NCBI GenBank assembly: GCA_016215445.1
Contig: JACRJL010000003.1
Coordinates: 466,924 to 530,923 of the forward strand
DNA from: Candidatus Roizmanbacteria bacterium
GTDB lineage: Bacteria; Patescibacteriota; Microgenomatia; UBA1406; GWC2-37-13
Direction of reading: 5' to 3'
Length of the DNA stretch: 64,000 nucleotides
The notes under the pieces were generated by a model, which saw only the letters and a list, made by a program, of their open reading frames with translations, was not told the DNA's origin and ran no database searches. The translations under genes and the position numbers were made by a program. Positions 11,488 to 19,298 of the stretch are shown one piece after another; the stretch's first letter is position 1, and each line of letters opens with the position of its first letter.

Positions 11488-13023
11488 TTATTTGAGTTTT
11501 CCGATGACGGATTCCGCGGTTTCTAATATCAGATAGTTACGGATTAAAGGCACCATTTTTTCTATGTCCAAGTAAAAAGCGCGGTCTTCTGTAATCTCCG
11601 GACTGACTGATCTGACCAATTTATAGACAGCCTGAAAAGTTTTTGACGGTTTTACAGGTTTTCTAAATTCATAAGCCTGACAGGTCGCCAAAAGTTGGAT
11701 AGCGACGACAGCTTCTGTATTTTTTATAATCTCCCGGGCTTTTCTGGCGGCAATGGTGCCGAATGAGACGTGGTCTTCTTGGTTTCCGGAAACAGGAATC
11801 GAATCAACACTGGCAGGACCCGCAAGAATTTTATTCTCCGAGACTAACGCCGCCTGGGTATATTGTGAAATCATTAGTCCCGAGTCCAACCCGGCGCTTT
11901 TTACCAAAAAAGCAGGTAGGTCTTTGGAACAGGCAGGATCCATCAAGTTATTTGTCTGCCTTTCGGAAATGTTTCCCAAATCAGTAATAATAATTCCCAG
12001 AAGATCCTGGGTGTAACCAATCGGTGCGCCATGAAAGTTAGCCCCTGTTCGGCAGATCTTTTCCTTTGTATAAAAAATCGGATTGTCGGCAACGGCATTC
12101 ATTTCAATCTCAGTGATTTTTCGGATATAGTCCATCGCGTCTCGGCAGGCCCCGGCCACTTGCGGTACAGATCTAAGTGAGTATGCGTTTTGGACGTTTT
12201 TTTTCGGCCTTTTCATCAATTCGCTTCCACTAAACAGTTTTCTAAGATTGGCAGCAGAATCGTTTTGTCCCTTAAAAGGTCTGACTTCGTTATATTCCTT
12301 GCTGTAGGGAGTTTCTACACAGTTCAAAACATCAATAGTCATACTACAGACAATTTCTGTCTGTTTTATTAGTCTTTCTGTATCGTAAATATTGAAGGCG
12401 GCGATTGCGGTCATGAATTGAGACCCATTCATAATTGCCAGTCCTTCCCGGTAGGCAAGAGGTACCGGTTTTATACCGGCTTTTTTCATGGCAATATCGC
12501 CGGGCAGAATCTTTCCTTGGAAATAAGCCTTGCCTTCTCCTATCACAACCAGCCCCATTTGTGACAATGGAGCCAGATCGCCTGATGTTCCGACAGAACC
12601 TTTTTCATAGAATGCCGGAGTGACTCCTTTATTTAACATTTCAACAAAAGTGTTAAAAAGAATTGTTCTGACTCCGGAATAACCTTTGGCAAAGACGTTT
12701 AATCTAAGTAATAAAGTGGCCTTGGCAATTTCCTCTTCGACAATTTTTCCATAACCCGAAGAGTGGGCGCGAAGCATCCTTGTGGAAAGCTCTCCGGCTT
12801 TTTCTTTGGAAATAGTGACATTTCCGAATCCGCCGATGCCCGTATTTAAGCCATACATGACGTCGCCCCGCTCCAGCATTTCCGCGATGGCGTTCCAGTT
12901 GTCATTAATTTTTTTTATAACTTGGGGAGGAATAATTACTTTGGCATTATCGCGGGCGACAGCCACTACCTGTTCAACTGTTAAATCGTTGCCCGTCAAG
13001 AAAACTTTATCTATTTTTTTCAT
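11488..13023 (-). CDS. hutH: Histidine/aromatic amino acid ammonia-lyase (MIO family)
   Basis: 511 aa; YGLNTGIGGFG, GSVGTSGDLAPLSQMGLVVIGEG, LNGSQ-type MNGSQFM, QDxxS-type NQEDHVSFG; substrate specificity not established. Confidence 0.88.
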   Translation of the reverse strand: MKKIDKVFLTGNDLTVEQVVAVARDNAKVIIPPQVIKKINDNWNAIAEMLERGDVMYGLNTGIGGFGNVTISKEKAGELSTRMLRAHSSGYGKIVEEEIAKATLLLRLNVFAKGYSGVRTILFNTFVEMLNKGVTPAFYEKGSVGTSGDLAPLSQMGLVVIGEGKAYFQGKILPGDIAMKKAGIKPVPLAYREGLAIMNGSQFMTAIAAFNIYDTERLIKQTEIVCSMTIDVLNCVETPYSKEYNEVRPFKGQNDSAANLRKLFSGSELMKRPKKNVQNAYSLRSVPQVAGACRDAMDYIRKITEIEMNAVADNPIFYTKEKICRTGANFHGAPIGYTQDLLGIIITDLGNISERQTNNLMDPACSKDLPAFLVKSAGLDSGLMISQYTQAALVSENKILAGPASVDSIPVSGNQEDHVSFGTIAARKAREIIKNTEAVVAIQLLATCQAYEFRKPVKPSKTFQAVYKLVRSVSPEITEDRAFYLDIEKMVPLIRNYLILETAESVIGKLK

Positions 13024-13186: not shown

Positions 13187-13204
13187 ATATTAACGTGTTA
13201 ATAT
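13187..13204. promoter_or_regulatory. 18-bp palindrome, putative TrpR-family operator between hutH and the first yerC/trpR-like gene
   Basis: ATATTAACGTGTTAATAT; overlaps the predicted hutH start site; 13/18 identical to the palindrome at 19265-19282. Confidence 0.5.
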
Positions 13205-13231
13205 GATAATATACAATTATTTATTTGTCAA
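13203..13231 (-). promoter_or_regulatory. Putative hutH promoter TTGACA-N17-TATCAT
   Basis: Minus strand -35 at 13226-13231, -10 at 13203-13208. Confidence 0.6.
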
Positions 13232-13247
13232 GTGATATAATTTATAT

Positions 13248-13535
13248 ATGAATAAATTTATTTCCTATAAACCGAAAAACGACAAAGAGAAGTTTTTAGC
13301 AAAGTCATTTTTGAAGTTAAAAACAGAACAGGAAGTGGCTAATTTTTTGAGAGATTTATTGACGATAAAAGAAATAGAAGAATTTTCGAATAGACTCGAA
13401 ATGGCGAGGCTTCTTAAAAAGGGATTATCTTACAAAGCAATCGCTAAAAAGCTCAAAGTTTCGACGACGACAGTTACCCGTACGGCTCACTGGTTGTTTA
13501 GAGGTTGTGGAGGTTATGAAAAGGTTTTGAAATAA
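13248..13535 (+). CDS. TrpR/YerC-YecD family transcriptional regulator (copy 1)
   Basis: EVANFLRDLLTIKEIEEFSNRLEMARLLKKGLSYKAIAKKLKVSTTTVTRTAHWL: TrpR-superfamily helix-turn-helix. Confidence 0.88.
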   Translation: MNKFISYKPKNDKEKFLAKSFLKLKTEQEVANFLRDLLTIKEIEEFSNRLEMARLLKKGLSYKAIAKKLKVSTTTVTRTAHWLFRGCGGYEKVLK

Positions 13536-16099: not shown

Positions 16100-17563
16100 T
16101 TAAAGTAAGCCCATTTTATGTTTAACTTCTTTGACTGTTTCTCTAGCAATTCTGTGAGCTCGTTCTGCGCCGTCCCTTATCACCTCGTCAACGTATTTCT
16201 GATCAGCGGATATCTTTGCTCTTCTTTCCTGGAAAGGCTTGAGTTCCTTGTAAATCGCTTCGGCAATCCTGTCTTTTAACTCCACAAATTGGAGAGATTT
16301 ATCTTGATATGATTTTTTGAATCCCTCAACTTCGCTCGGAATAAATAGTTGAGCGAATATAAAAAGCGTTTTAAGTCCTGGTGACATTTCGCCTCCGGCC
16401 GCAGTTGCCGTCGGAACCGAACGGATTTTTTTCCTTATTTTTTCGAGCGAATCGGTTAAATTTATAAAACTATTGACGACTGTTTTGCTCATTTTTCCCT
16501 CTCCAGTCAAAGAAGGAATATATTCTCCTTTAGTGGCAAAACGTACTGGTTCGGGAAAATCTGTGCCATAAAGCTGGTTCATTTTGCGAGCTATTTCTCT
16601 AGCCACTTCCAAATGCGGTTCTTGGTCGATTCCGACAGGGACAAGTCCTGCCTTATAAATGAGAATGTCTGATGCCATAAGAACAGGGTAGTTTAATAAT
16701 GCCATTGTATTTGCATCAGGATGTTGTTTCACTTTATCTTTATAAGTAGGTAAGTGTTGCATTCTGGCGATTGTGACTACCGAGGAAAAGTAAAACGCCA
16801 ATTCAATGTGTTCGGGAACTTCTGACTGATAGATGATGATGCTTTTTTTTGGATCAAGTCCGGCTGCCAGATAATCGATAATAATTTCCCGTTTATTTTT
16901 GGCCAAGGCATTTTTGTCATAAGGCGTAGTGATCGAGTGGACGTCGACAACACAGTAGACGGTTTCATACTCGCCTGATTTCTCAAGCTCGAGAAACCCC
17001 TTGACTGCACCCAAATAATTTCCCAAATGCAGTCTGCCCGTGGCCCTGATTCCCGAAAAAACTCTTTTTACAGAAGTTGAATGGGATTTTTCCTGTTCAA
17101 TAGGCACTGTGACGTCGACAACTTCTACACCTGGCAGTTTCTTAAGATCTTCGGAAAGGCATTGAAAGGTATAGTTCAGACTACCTGTACCGCCCAAAAT
17201 ATATTTCTTGCCAAAAACTTCTTTGTCTATATAGGTTTTGAGATTTGGGACATAAAATCGGGCTGTTCCGATTTCAAGTCCGGTCACTTTAGAAAATTCT
17301 TCTGGGGTAGCGATTCTTAAAGATTCAATTCCCAATAATTTTTTTATTTTTTTGAAGGATATTTTTGTGACATCTCTTCTCAAAACAGCTATGAAATCAT
17401 CGTCGGCCTTCATGATCAACGTCGCCACACTGTCGTCAAGAGTATAACCAAGATGATTGACAACCTGAGCGGCTTCGACAAGAGGCGGGTGTTCAAGAAC
17501 CTTATTTTTTATTCCCAGCTCCTCCATTTTTTTACAATAGTCCAAAACAATTTTGTCTGTCAT
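16100..17563 (-). CDS. trpS: Tryptophanyl-tRNA synthetase with N-terminal YbaK/prolyl-tRNA-deacylase-like domain
   Basis: YbaK-like N-terminus (VLEHPPLVEAAQVVNHLGYTLDDSVATLIMKADDDFIAVLRRDV...GTGSLNYTF), then TrpRS: FSGIRATGRLHLGNYLGAV, VPVGIDQEPHLEVARE, GEGKMSKT. Confidence 0.9.
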   Translation of the reverse strand: MTDKIVLDYCKKMEELGIKNKVLEHPPLVEAAQVVNHLGYTLDDSVATLIMKADDDFIAVLRRDVTKISFKKIKKLLGIESLRIATPEEFSKVTGLEIGTARFYVPNLKTYIDKEVFGKKYILGGTGSLNYTFQCLSEDLKKLPGVEVVDVTVPIEQEKSHSTSVKRVFSGIRATGRLHLGNYLGAVKGFLELEKSGEYETVYCVVDVHSITTPYDKNALAKNKREIIIDYLAAGLDPKKSIIIYQSEVPEHIELAFYFSSVVTIARMQHLPTYKDKVKQHPDANTMALLNYPVLMASDILIYKAGLVPVGIDQEPHLEVAREIARKMNQLYGTDFPEPVRFATKGEYIPSLTGEGKMSKTVVNSFINLTDSLEKIRKKIRSVPTATAAGGEMSPGLKTLFIFAQLFIPSEVEGFKKSYQDKSLQFVELKDRIAEAIYKELKPFQERRAKISADQKYVDEVIRDGAERAHRIARETVKEVKHKMGLL

Positions 17564-17571
17564 ATTTTTAA

Positions 17572-18879
17572 TTATAACTTATGGTGTAAAAATTTGTCAT
17601 AGCCGTTGAGGTCCAAAAGTCCGTGGCCGGAAAGATTGAAAAGAATCACTTTTTTCTTTCCCTCATTGCGGGCTTTGACTGCCTCGTCCATGACTGCTTT
17701 AATGGCGTGACTTGATTCGGGCGCGGGAACAATGCCTTCGGTTCGGGCAAAGTCGATTCCTGCCTGAAAGACCGGTTTTTGATCATGAGCAACAGTTTCC
17801 ATTAACTTCTCGTTATAAATAAACGAGATCAAAGGCGCCATGCCGTGATACCTTAATCCTCCGGCGTGGATCGGTGAAGGGACAAAACCGCTGCCCAAGG
17901 TATACATTTTCAAAAGGGGCGTCATCTGGGCAGTGTCGCCAAAGTCGTATTCGTATTTTCCCTTGGTCAGGGTCGGACAGGAAGCCGGTTCAACTCCGAC
18001 AAACCTGATTTTCCTTTTTTCTCTCAGTTTGTCAACCAGGAAAGGAAAAGCAATGCCGGCAAAGTTGCTGCCTCCGCCGACACAGCCTATGATGATATCA
18101 GGATATTCTCCAGCCTTTTTCATCTGTTTTTTCGCCTCCAGTCCTACTATAGTTTGATGTAGTAAGACATGATTTAATACACTTCCTAAGGAATATTTAT
18201 AGCCCTTATTTTTGACAACAGTTTCCAAAGCCTCGCTGATCGCAATCCCCAATGATCCTGGATGTTTTTCATCTGTTTTCAATACTTTTTTTCCGAATTC
18301 CGTTTTATCAGACGGGCTGGCAAAGACTTCGGCGCCGTATGTTTCCATGACGGTTTTACGAAACGGTTTTTGGTCGAAACTGACTCTCACCATGTAAACA
18401 ACCAGTCTCATTTCAAAAAAGTTGGTTGCCAGGGCAAGAGCCGATCCCCACTGGCCGGCTCCGGTTTCCGTCGCCAAAGTTTTCACGCCCTCTTTTTTGT
18501 TATAGTAAGCCTGAGCGATTGCTGTATTTAATTTATGAGCTCCGGTTGGAGATGCGCCTTCATATTTATAATAAATATGAGCCGGCGTGTCCAAAAACTT
18601 TTCCAGACGATGTGCCCGGATAAGGGGAGTCGGCCGATAGAGTTTATAAAGTTCCCTGACTTCTTCGGGAATTTTAATTTTTTCCTCAAGTGACACTTCC
18701 TGTTTGATCAATTCCATTGGAAAAATTGCGGATAAATCTGCCGGTCCGATAGGCTGTTTGGTGACAGGATTTAAAGGCGGATCTGGAAGTTTCTTCAGGT
18801 ACTTGTTTAGATAATAAGAAATATTAAGATAATACTCAGGTATTTCTGAGTCTGATAATGTGATTTTTGTGTTTTTCAT
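17572..18879 (-). CDS. trpB: Tryptophan synthase beta chain, TrpB2-like
   Basis: [61 protein letters not shown]; start [10 protein letters not shown] chosen because the longer ORF start lies in the leader terminator. Confidence 0.92.
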
Positions 18880-18907
18880 AAAATTTATTAAATAATTTAT
18901 AACCATT

Positions 18908-18931
18908 AAAAAAGCCGCCCATGCGGACGGC
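18908..18931 (-). terminator. Leader terminator (attenuator) upstream of trpB
   Basis: Minus-strand GCCGTCC-GCAT-GGGCGGC hairpin (7 bp, one G-U) followed by T6. Confidence 0.75.
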
Positions 18932-18951
18932 ATTTGAATGACTTTAATTAA

Positions 18952-19017
18952 TTAAAGTAGCCACCCGCTTCGCGGATATGTTTTCTGCCAGCAATTTTTA
19001 TTTGAATAGTTTTTCAT
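18952..19017 (-). CDS. Putative trp leader peptide MKNYSNKNCWQKTYPRSGWLL
   Basis: 22-codon ORF with two Trp codons, ATGA overlap with the upstream regulator stop, followed by a three-segment attenuator-like structure. Confidence 0.5.
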   Translation of the reverse strand: MKNYSNKNCWQKTYPRSGWLL

Positions 19018-19259
19018 ATTTTTTTAAACCTTCCCATTTTTATTTCTCTCGATCCTCTTGTCACTGTCGCCACGCCGACTTTAAGACGGCGAGCAATCTC
19101 CTGGTGGGGGAGGCCGGTTTTCAAAAGCTTGACGATTTGTAATCTCGTAATTAACTCCTCAAGTTCCCTTGGAGTTAAAATTCCTTTTAAAAACTCGAGC
19201 ATCTCGCTTCTTGTTTTATTTTTCAAAAAAGCATTGACCAACTCCCCTACTTTGTTCAT
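19014..19259 (-). CDS. TrpR/YerC-YecD family transcriptional regulator (copy 2)
   Basis: LTPRELEELITRLQIVKLLKTGLPHQEIARRLKVGVATVTRGSREIK: TrpR-superfamily helix-turn-helix. Confidence 0.9.
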   Translation of the reverse strand: MNKVGELVNAFLKNKTRSEMLEFLKGILTPRELEELITRLQIVKLLKTGLPHQEIARRLKVGVATVTRGSREIKMGRFKKI

Positions 19260-19264
19260 AACTG

Positions 19265-19282
19265 ATACTATCGTACTAGTAT
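19265..19282. promoter_or_regulatory. 18-bp imperfect palindrome, putative TrpR-like operator
   Basis: Minus strand ATACTAGTACGATAGTAT overlaps the -10; resembles the remembered E. coli trp operator and the palindrome at 13187. Confidence 0.5.
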
Positions 19283-19298
19283 GTTATTAGTTTGTCAA
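19270..19298 (-). promoter_or_regulatory. Putative promoter TTGACA-N17-TACGAT for the yerC-trpB-trpS unit
   Basis: -35 at 19293-19298, -10 at 19270-19275, exact 17-nt spacer. Confidence 0.6.

Follow-up and report, generated by a model that had tools for sequence, protein, structure and literature searches.

A probable ribosome-mediated trp attenuator between trpR and trpB in a Candidatus Roizmanbacteria genome, with candidate alternative tryptophan sensors in its relatives

Introduction

In a genome of Candidatus Roizmanbacteria (0.94 Mb, 97% complete), an uncultured member of the candidate phyla radiation, a trpB gene is preceded by a short open reading frame (ORF) with two Trp codons and by a hairpin followed by a run of T residues. 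Does this leader sense tryptophan and, if so, in what form, for which genes and alongside which other controls? A preliminary description, made from the sequence alone, had read it as a trp-type attenuator. Here we examine that reading by comparison with related genomes, by pairing and folding calculations and against known regulatory systems. The window, throughout, is the whole stretch of 64,000 nucleotides that was analysed.

Organization of the trpR-leader-trpB-trpS Operon

By sequence and by comparison with relatives, the following features were recognized, all on the minus strand and given in order of transcription:

19293..19298, minus strand: -35 box TTGACA of the trpR promoter
19266..19281, minus strand: TrpR-type operator TACTAGTACGATAGTA, overlying the -10 box (consensus of relatives TACTAGTATACTAGTA)
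19270..19275, minus strand: -10 box TACGAT, within the TrpR-type operator
19014..19259, minus strand: trpR, 81-aa Trp repressor (PF01371, E 6e-19), presumably autoregulated
18952..19017, minus strand: leader peptide ORF, MKNYSNKNCWQKTYPRSGWLL and a stop codon; its ATG overlaps the trpR stop (ATGA)
18988..18990, minus strand: control Trp codon TGG at the stall position, conserved in relatives
18965..18975, minus strand: hairpin 1:2, CCGC-GAA-GCGG
18960..18968, minus strand: segment 2, GCGGGTGGC, 5' arm of the antiterminator (pairing tests)
18961..18963, minus strand: second Trp codon, inside segment 2
18941..18958, minus strand: AT-rich hairpin or palindrome ACTTTAATTAATTAAAGT, between the antiterminator arms
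18923..18931, minus strand: segment 3, GCCGTCCGC, 3' arm of the antiterminator and 5' arm of the terminator (pairing tests)
18914..18931, minus strand: predicted intrinsic terminator hairpin 3:4, GCCGTCC-GCAT-GGGCGGC (-12.3 kcal/mol, 7-bp stem)
18908..18913, minus strand: T6 run of the terminator
17572..18885, minus strand: trpB, TrpB2 type, 437 aa (TIGR01415, 651 bits versus a cut-off of 519)
16100..17563, minus strand: trpS, tryptophanyl-tRNA synthetase, same operon (TIGR00233, 277 bits; PF04073)

The elements named in the preliminary description are all in the sequence: the leader ORF (19017-18952) exactly as described, the 1:2 hairpin (18975-18965), the 9-bp alternative pairing with two G-U pairs (18968-18960 with 18931-18923), the terminator (18931-18914) with its T6 run (18913-18908), and the AT palindrome between the antiterminator arms (18958-18941). 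Beyond that description, the ORF 5' of the leader proved to be trpR, whose TGA overlaps with the ATG of the leader. The leader reads ATG AAA AAC TAT TCA AAT AAA AAT TGC TGG CAG AAA ACA TAT CCG CGA AGC GGG TGG CTA CTT TAA, which gives 2 Trp codons in 21; leaders of relatives have up to 4. The longest trpB ORF would begin within the terminator (18933), and the start conserved among relatives is 18885. The trpS product carries an N-terminal editing-like domain (PF04073).

The 1:2, 2:3 and 3:4 pairings are mutually exclusive, and their placement fits the classical stall and release positions. Segments 1 and 2 lie 15 and 22 nt, respectively, past the start of the control codon, and hairpin 1:2, of just 4 bp, begins at the edge of the footprint of a ribosome stalled at that codon. 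A ribosome terminating at the leader stop codon, which is beyond segment 2, would cover that segment.

The Leader in Related Genomes

A search of 73 genomes of the family found the same trpB, preceded by trpR, Trp codons and a terminator, at 14 loci in 13 further genomes. Ten of these 14 loci carry tandem Trp codons at the stall position (NNWW, KNWW), which bears out the earlier remark that only the first Trp codon of the window suits that position; in the window the first codon of the would-be pair is TGC (Cys), leaving a single Trp codon at which to stall. Tandem codons at this place are customary in attenuators of the TrpL type, though not required. Trp is retained in the peptides of relatives (NNWWTSNLW, KNWWQKVYPRSGWLL, NWQNWNPCSW, IWQSWQTL) even as the sequences of the arms change. 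Further examples of leaders at these loci are MKNKINSNNWWTSNLW (L008), MIKNSLFGKNWWQKVYPRSGWLL (L012) and MKINLGKNWQNWNPCSWRVFI (L005), each followed by a stop codon. The terminator arms are GCCGTCC/GGGCGGC in the window, GCCACTC/GAGTGGC in L014 and CCTCTGC/GCGGAGG in L004; between L014 and the window both 3:4 arms have changed together. The Trp codons, the exclusive pairings and the terminator are in this way kept in relatives with differing leader sequences, and the conservation of Trp codons and alternative pairing on which the attenuator reading depended was found for both. The attenuator also occurs 5' of trpE-like genes in L152, L154 and L230, where it is read from the ORF start, and 5' of a second kind of trpB (L031) and of other genes.

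These comparisons bear on whether the peptide itself might be the sensor. In a TnaC-like arrest, the leader peptide sequence would sense free tryptophan and an excess of Trp would induce trpB, a reading in keeping with the short peptide and the one stall-position Trp codon of the window. Conservation of the peptide is limited, however, to Trp, often with a preceding Asn; the number and spacing of the Trp codons vary (W, WW, WWW, WxxW), as do the stop codons; the 1-2-3-4 geometry is present; and it would make little sense for excess Trp to induce its own synthesis. We consider peptide-specific arrest extremely unlikely, and favor codon stalling in an attenuator.

Pairing Tests and Modelled Folding

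The 2:3 duplex of the window has an energy of -16.0, compared with -10.1 when the upstream DNA is shuffled (p 0.013, z about -2.5). The window has seven further sites with a hairpin and a T-run, and none of them gave a z below -1; the mean over all such sites, including the trp site, was -0.4, and the trp site alone was below -2. Over 25 leaders compared with dinucleotide-shuffled upstream DNA, the 2:3 pairing had a mean z of -2.6 (Stouffer -13.2). Because the leaders of this test, like those of the folding test below, were chosen partly by eye, an automatic test was run on every trpR locus with a hairpin and T-run within 380 nt (n=34), in which segment 2 was located from pairing alone and neither ORFs nor Trp codons were used. 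The mean z for 2:3 was -2.4 and the Stouffer value -14.1, with the qualification that related loci are not independent. A TGG was found 11-24 nt 5' of segment 2 in 31 of the 34 loci, where other bins of equal size held one in 1 to 14 loci, and 7 of the 31 come from four other families of the class. The result depends on no single sublineage, as the sublineages differ enough. At L016, a locus without trpR, the 2:3 pairing test fails. In a six-sequence alignment made with formal covariation in view, terminator registers differ among sublineages (L006 and L013 versus the rest), and the shuffling tests were therefore preferred over formal pair counting.

One alternative reading of the locus is that the hairpin between trpR and trpB is an ordinary terminator or processing site, the short ORF meaningless and trpB held at a fixed low level. 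The terminator does exist, and the single-sequence minimum free energy fold of the whole leader is ordinary (z -1.6) and uninformative, so the case rests on comparison. That comparison speaks against a plain terminator: Trp codons stand at a fixed distance 5' of segment 2 in all but three of the 34 loci, the 2:3 pairing is stronger than in shuffles, and rewritten arms stay complementary in both alternative structures. We regard such a terminator as very unlikely to be the whole explanation, and an attenuator as the better account.

Linker hairpins between the antiterminator arms exceed shuffles overall (Stouffer -6.6), and the AT palindrome of the window may bring the arms together. As an essential part the palindrome was rejected: a linker hairpin is absent in about half of the relatives, and it is helpful at most.

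The switch was modelled by equilibrium folding of the RNA ahead of a ribosome, a model that leaves co-transcriptional kinetics aside. With the ribosome at the leader stop, the modelled probability of the terminator was 0.99 in the window and at least 0.92 in 24 of 24 leaders. With the ribosome stalled at Trp, it fell in the window to between 0.54 and 0.47, and the antiterminator took 0.45 to 0.52; this partial switch compares with a nearly complete antiterminator in many relatives. In L011, L148, L152, L154, L009 and L145 the antiterminator does not win at the stall in this equilibrium model. Without a ribosome, the window was predicted to form the terminator (0.96) and many relatives the antiterminator.

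Searches for a known RNA element addressed a further possibility, namely that another sensor (a T-box, TRAP or a riboswitch) occupies the trpR-trpB junction. One relative, L171 (G097:C140), has a T-box (RF00230; 1732-1941) between trpR and the next gene, at the equivalent position, with 41.7 bits and E 8e-7, below the gathering threshold of 93. In the window, however, the Rfam scan at gathering thresholds gave two tRNAs and nothing else, the leader matched no known leader at gathering or relaxed thresholds (Phe_leader reached 21.2 bits versus a threshold of 55), no T-box core or specifier loop was found in it, and the RNA between trpR and the terminator is too short for a T-box. The chance of such a sensor in the window seems to us negligible. 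T-box leaders share with the attenuator the sensing of tRNA charging and the switching of a terminator, but bind tRNA directly and have no leader peptide.

Taken with the sequence features, which are confirmed, these results make the interpretation as a trp attenuator very probable.

The Repressor and Its Operator

When aligned with E. coli TrpR (PDB set), the trpR product has T44, R54, R84 and G85 on invariant columns, which are the residues that hold tryptophan in E. coli TrpR. Its score of 51 bits is below the strict TIGR01321 equivalog cut-off of 67 and well above Pfam's cut-off. In the promoter, TTGACA and TACGAT are separated by 17 nt, and TTGACA is kept 5' of trpR in almost all loci. 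The consensus TACTAGTATACTAGTA, or a near-match, is found at the trpR promoter in nearly all relatives and resembles the trp operator of E. coli, whose half-sites are CTAG. Since the operator in the trpR promoter is conserved, autorepression by TrpR through this site over the -10 box is likely. Other TrpR boxes were sought across the genome, where matches to the operator pattern were no commoner than matches to a reversed control pattern.

Proposed Mechanism and Physiology

We hold with high confidence, from the features and comparisons above, that the leader is a ribosome-mediated transcription attenuator which senses charged tRNA-Trp inside the operon trpR-leader-trpB-trpS, and we infer the following course of events. 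Transcription would start from the promoter whose -10 box lies in the TrpR operator; given that position, TrpR probably represses both its own gene and the operon in the presence of ample Trp. Ribosomes leaving trpR would reinitiate at the overlapping leader ATG. With sufficient Trp-tRNA, the ribosome would reach the leader stop and cover segment 2, segments 3 and 4 would pair, and transcription would stop 5' of trpB. When Trp-tRNA is scarce, the ribosome would stall at the TGG at 18990 with its front edge at about segment 1, segments 2 and 3 would pair, and trpB and trpS would be transcribed. Expression of trpB and trpS should accordingly increase as Trp-tRNA drops, and trpR, 5' of the switch, would respond to the operator only.

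What would the operon be for? In this genome trpC and trpE were not found, and trpA was not found above cut-off (a 24-bit partial match versus a cut-off of 27). Because trpA, trpC and trpE are lacking, the most likely role of TrpB2 is to turn scavenged indole, with serine, into Trp. The trpR, trpB and trpS products together contain 1 Trp in 1005 residues, versus about 10.6 expected (P 3e-4).

A Histidine Counterpart at hutH

A His-type attenuator of the same layout lies in the window at 13168-13040 (minus strand), before hutH (11488-13023; histidine ammonia-lyase, TIGR01225). Among the hutH leaders L113-L120, HH codons occur in 7 of 8 loci and HQ in L118. That histidine starvation would switch on a His-degrading enzyme is a paradox, unless perhaps the enzyme works in the reverse direction or salvages urocanate. 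Divergent from hutH is a second gene of the TrpR family (13248-13535, plus strand), of the YerC/YecD type and above the TIGR02531 cut-off, and the hutH promoter contains a conserved palindrome, ATATTAACACGTTAATAT (about 13190-13220), which may be the operator of the YerC/YecD-type protein. Such a pair of His repressor and attenuator would mirror the trp one. Immediately 5' of the trpR promoter (19360-19320, minus strand), GTTAAC/CGTTAA repeats (acacgttaactcgttaacccgttaatc) resemble half-sites of the hutH palindrome and are not conserved in the relatives examined; cross-control of the trpR promoter by the second TrpR-like protein through these repeats is possible.

Other Candidate Tryptophan Sensors Behind trpR

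Several relatives have something other than a separate leader behind trpR. In L009 (G072) and L145 (G070) the C-terminal codons of TrpR run into the antiterminator; the protein ends ...GWRPPQAGD or ...GWRASKKGG before its stop, with one Trp codon 5' of the hairpin, and the 3' end of trpR here is, as read from the sequence, the leader peptide. This recalls the E. coli pyrE attenuator behind rph, which is governed by translation of a full-length upstream gene and senses UTP through polymerase speed. Control by translation of a full-length upstream gene is common to both, whereas L009 and L145 would sense an amino acid through codon stalling rather than UTP.

In L221 (G136), L224 (G120) and L222 (G105) the Trp codon of trpR immediately precedes its stop (...NLKW and stop in L221 and L224). 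In L221 and L224, a CCTCC that follows the trpR stop could pair with a GGAGG preceding the next gene, which in L221 is trpS; this arrangement may be a translational form of the Trp sensor. Could the window, too, be controlled mainly by translational coupling from trpR through the leader to trpB, with the terminator playing a minor part, for example beside an internal promoter in an AT-rich stretch? The ATGA overlap of trpR and leader, the AT-rich TGGTTATAAATTATT immediately 3' of the T run, and the possible pairing over the ribosome-binding site in L221 and L224, which belong to another family, are in keeping with this. In the window, however, the terminator is strong, conserved and followed by T6, no pairing sequesters a ribosome-binding site, and the TATAAA stretch is not conserved in relatives. 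We judge coupling as the main control highly improbable, and retain transcription attenuation.

Another arrangement is a frameshift-like cassette, seen in ten loci (L140, L143, L167, L169, L172, L173, L177, L189, L219 and L231), of which nine have it behind trpR. At the end of an ORF 22-35 codons long stand a hairpin whose 3' arm is (A/C)GGGG, 3 nt, GTT/CTT and TGG (in L169 at G074:C26:16368-16381). In L173 (G254) the site follows a GGTGGCACAG core similar to that of the L171 T-box and undetected by Rfam. The prfB frameshift site consists of a Shine-Dalgarno-like element, a 3-nt spacer and CUU U; the cassettes share its layout, but UGG replaces UGA. The zero frame stops at most 7 codons past GTT/CTT, while an open +1 frame continues for 106 to at least 500 codons (in L172, for 25). 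The +1-frame product is TrpE in L169 (PF04715 and PF00425), TrpD-like in L143 and L189 (PF00591; above cut-off in L143 and just below in L189), PvcA-like in L140 and PPDK-like in L219. In 6 of the 10 cassettes a +1-frame stop lies 3 nt before the site, and an upstream start in that frame therefore cannot yield the product; a start further downstream is possible. Across a genome, matches to the simple pattern often arise by chance, and the argument for frameshifting depends on position, frames and products. No frameshift site was found in the trp genes of the window's own genome; its two pattern matches lie inside ordinary frames, neither in a trp gene, and were set aside as chance-like.

The cassettes appear to be +1 programmed frameshift sites with the Trp codon in the A site, which would give product only under Trp starvation. 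Our literature search found no report of a Trp-codon +1 frameshift of this kind, and a 2016 review knew of no natural product or example of starvation-induced (hungry-codon) frameshifting (PMC5009743). The cassettes are possibly the first natural hungry-codon frameshift regulator. Across these loci, we lean toward the view that, in the class of Patescibacteria that includes this genome, trpR is a place at which interchangeable sensors of charged tRNA-Trp dock: leader attenuators, the last codons of trpR, a T-box, and an undescribed prfB-like +1 cassette with a Trp codon in place of UGA, by which TrpE, for example, would be made only when ribosomes starve at UGG.

Relation to Known Systems

The E. 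coli TrpL attenuator combines a peptide with Trp codons, three exclusive pairings and a U-run terminator with the Trp repressor as a second control (PMC7755916). The short peptide with Trp codons, the exclusive pairings, the U-run terminator and the repressor are all found here. The window differs in that the attenuator is internal, 3' of the repressor gene, and would attenuate trpB and trpS only; in that the leader start overlaps the trpR stop; in that just one of its two Trp codons is at the stall position, the other lying in segment 2; and in that its target is a lone TrpB2 rather than trpEDCBA, with no Rfam match.

With the trpRBA operon of Chlamydia trachomatis the window shares the order trpR, intergenic region, trpB, an autoregulated TrpR (presumed here), indole-to-Trp salvage (inferred here) and a host-dependent organism. 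As expected of trpRBA-like salvage, trpR is followed by trpB in a genome without a complete Trp pathway, but Chlamydia has trpA and the operon of the window does not. The chlamydial trpL, an atypical 59-aa ORF that lacks tandem Trp codons, is doubtful, and it is the iron repressor YtgR that controls the region between trpR and trpB (PMC7755916). Conserved here, by contrast, are a compact leader and the 1-2-3-4 geometry.

Literature searches found neither an attenuator in Patescibacteria nor an earlier report of a trpR-trpB unit with a canonical Trp leader in that group; most subscription papers lay outside their scope, which makes them weak evidence of absence.

Significance

The probable attenuator between trpR and trpB provides the kind of well-formed trpR-trpB leader that was proposed, and is unproven, for chlamydial trpRBA. 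Its relatives point to an exchange of sensors behind one repressor and lead to a candidate for regulated hungry-codon frameshifting. Few regulators are known from Patescibacteria, whose genomes are tiny. Here, layered Trp control by a repressor and an attenuator would serve one salvage enzyme and its synthetase, and its retention suggests that the surrounding Trp or indole limits these cells and fluctuates.
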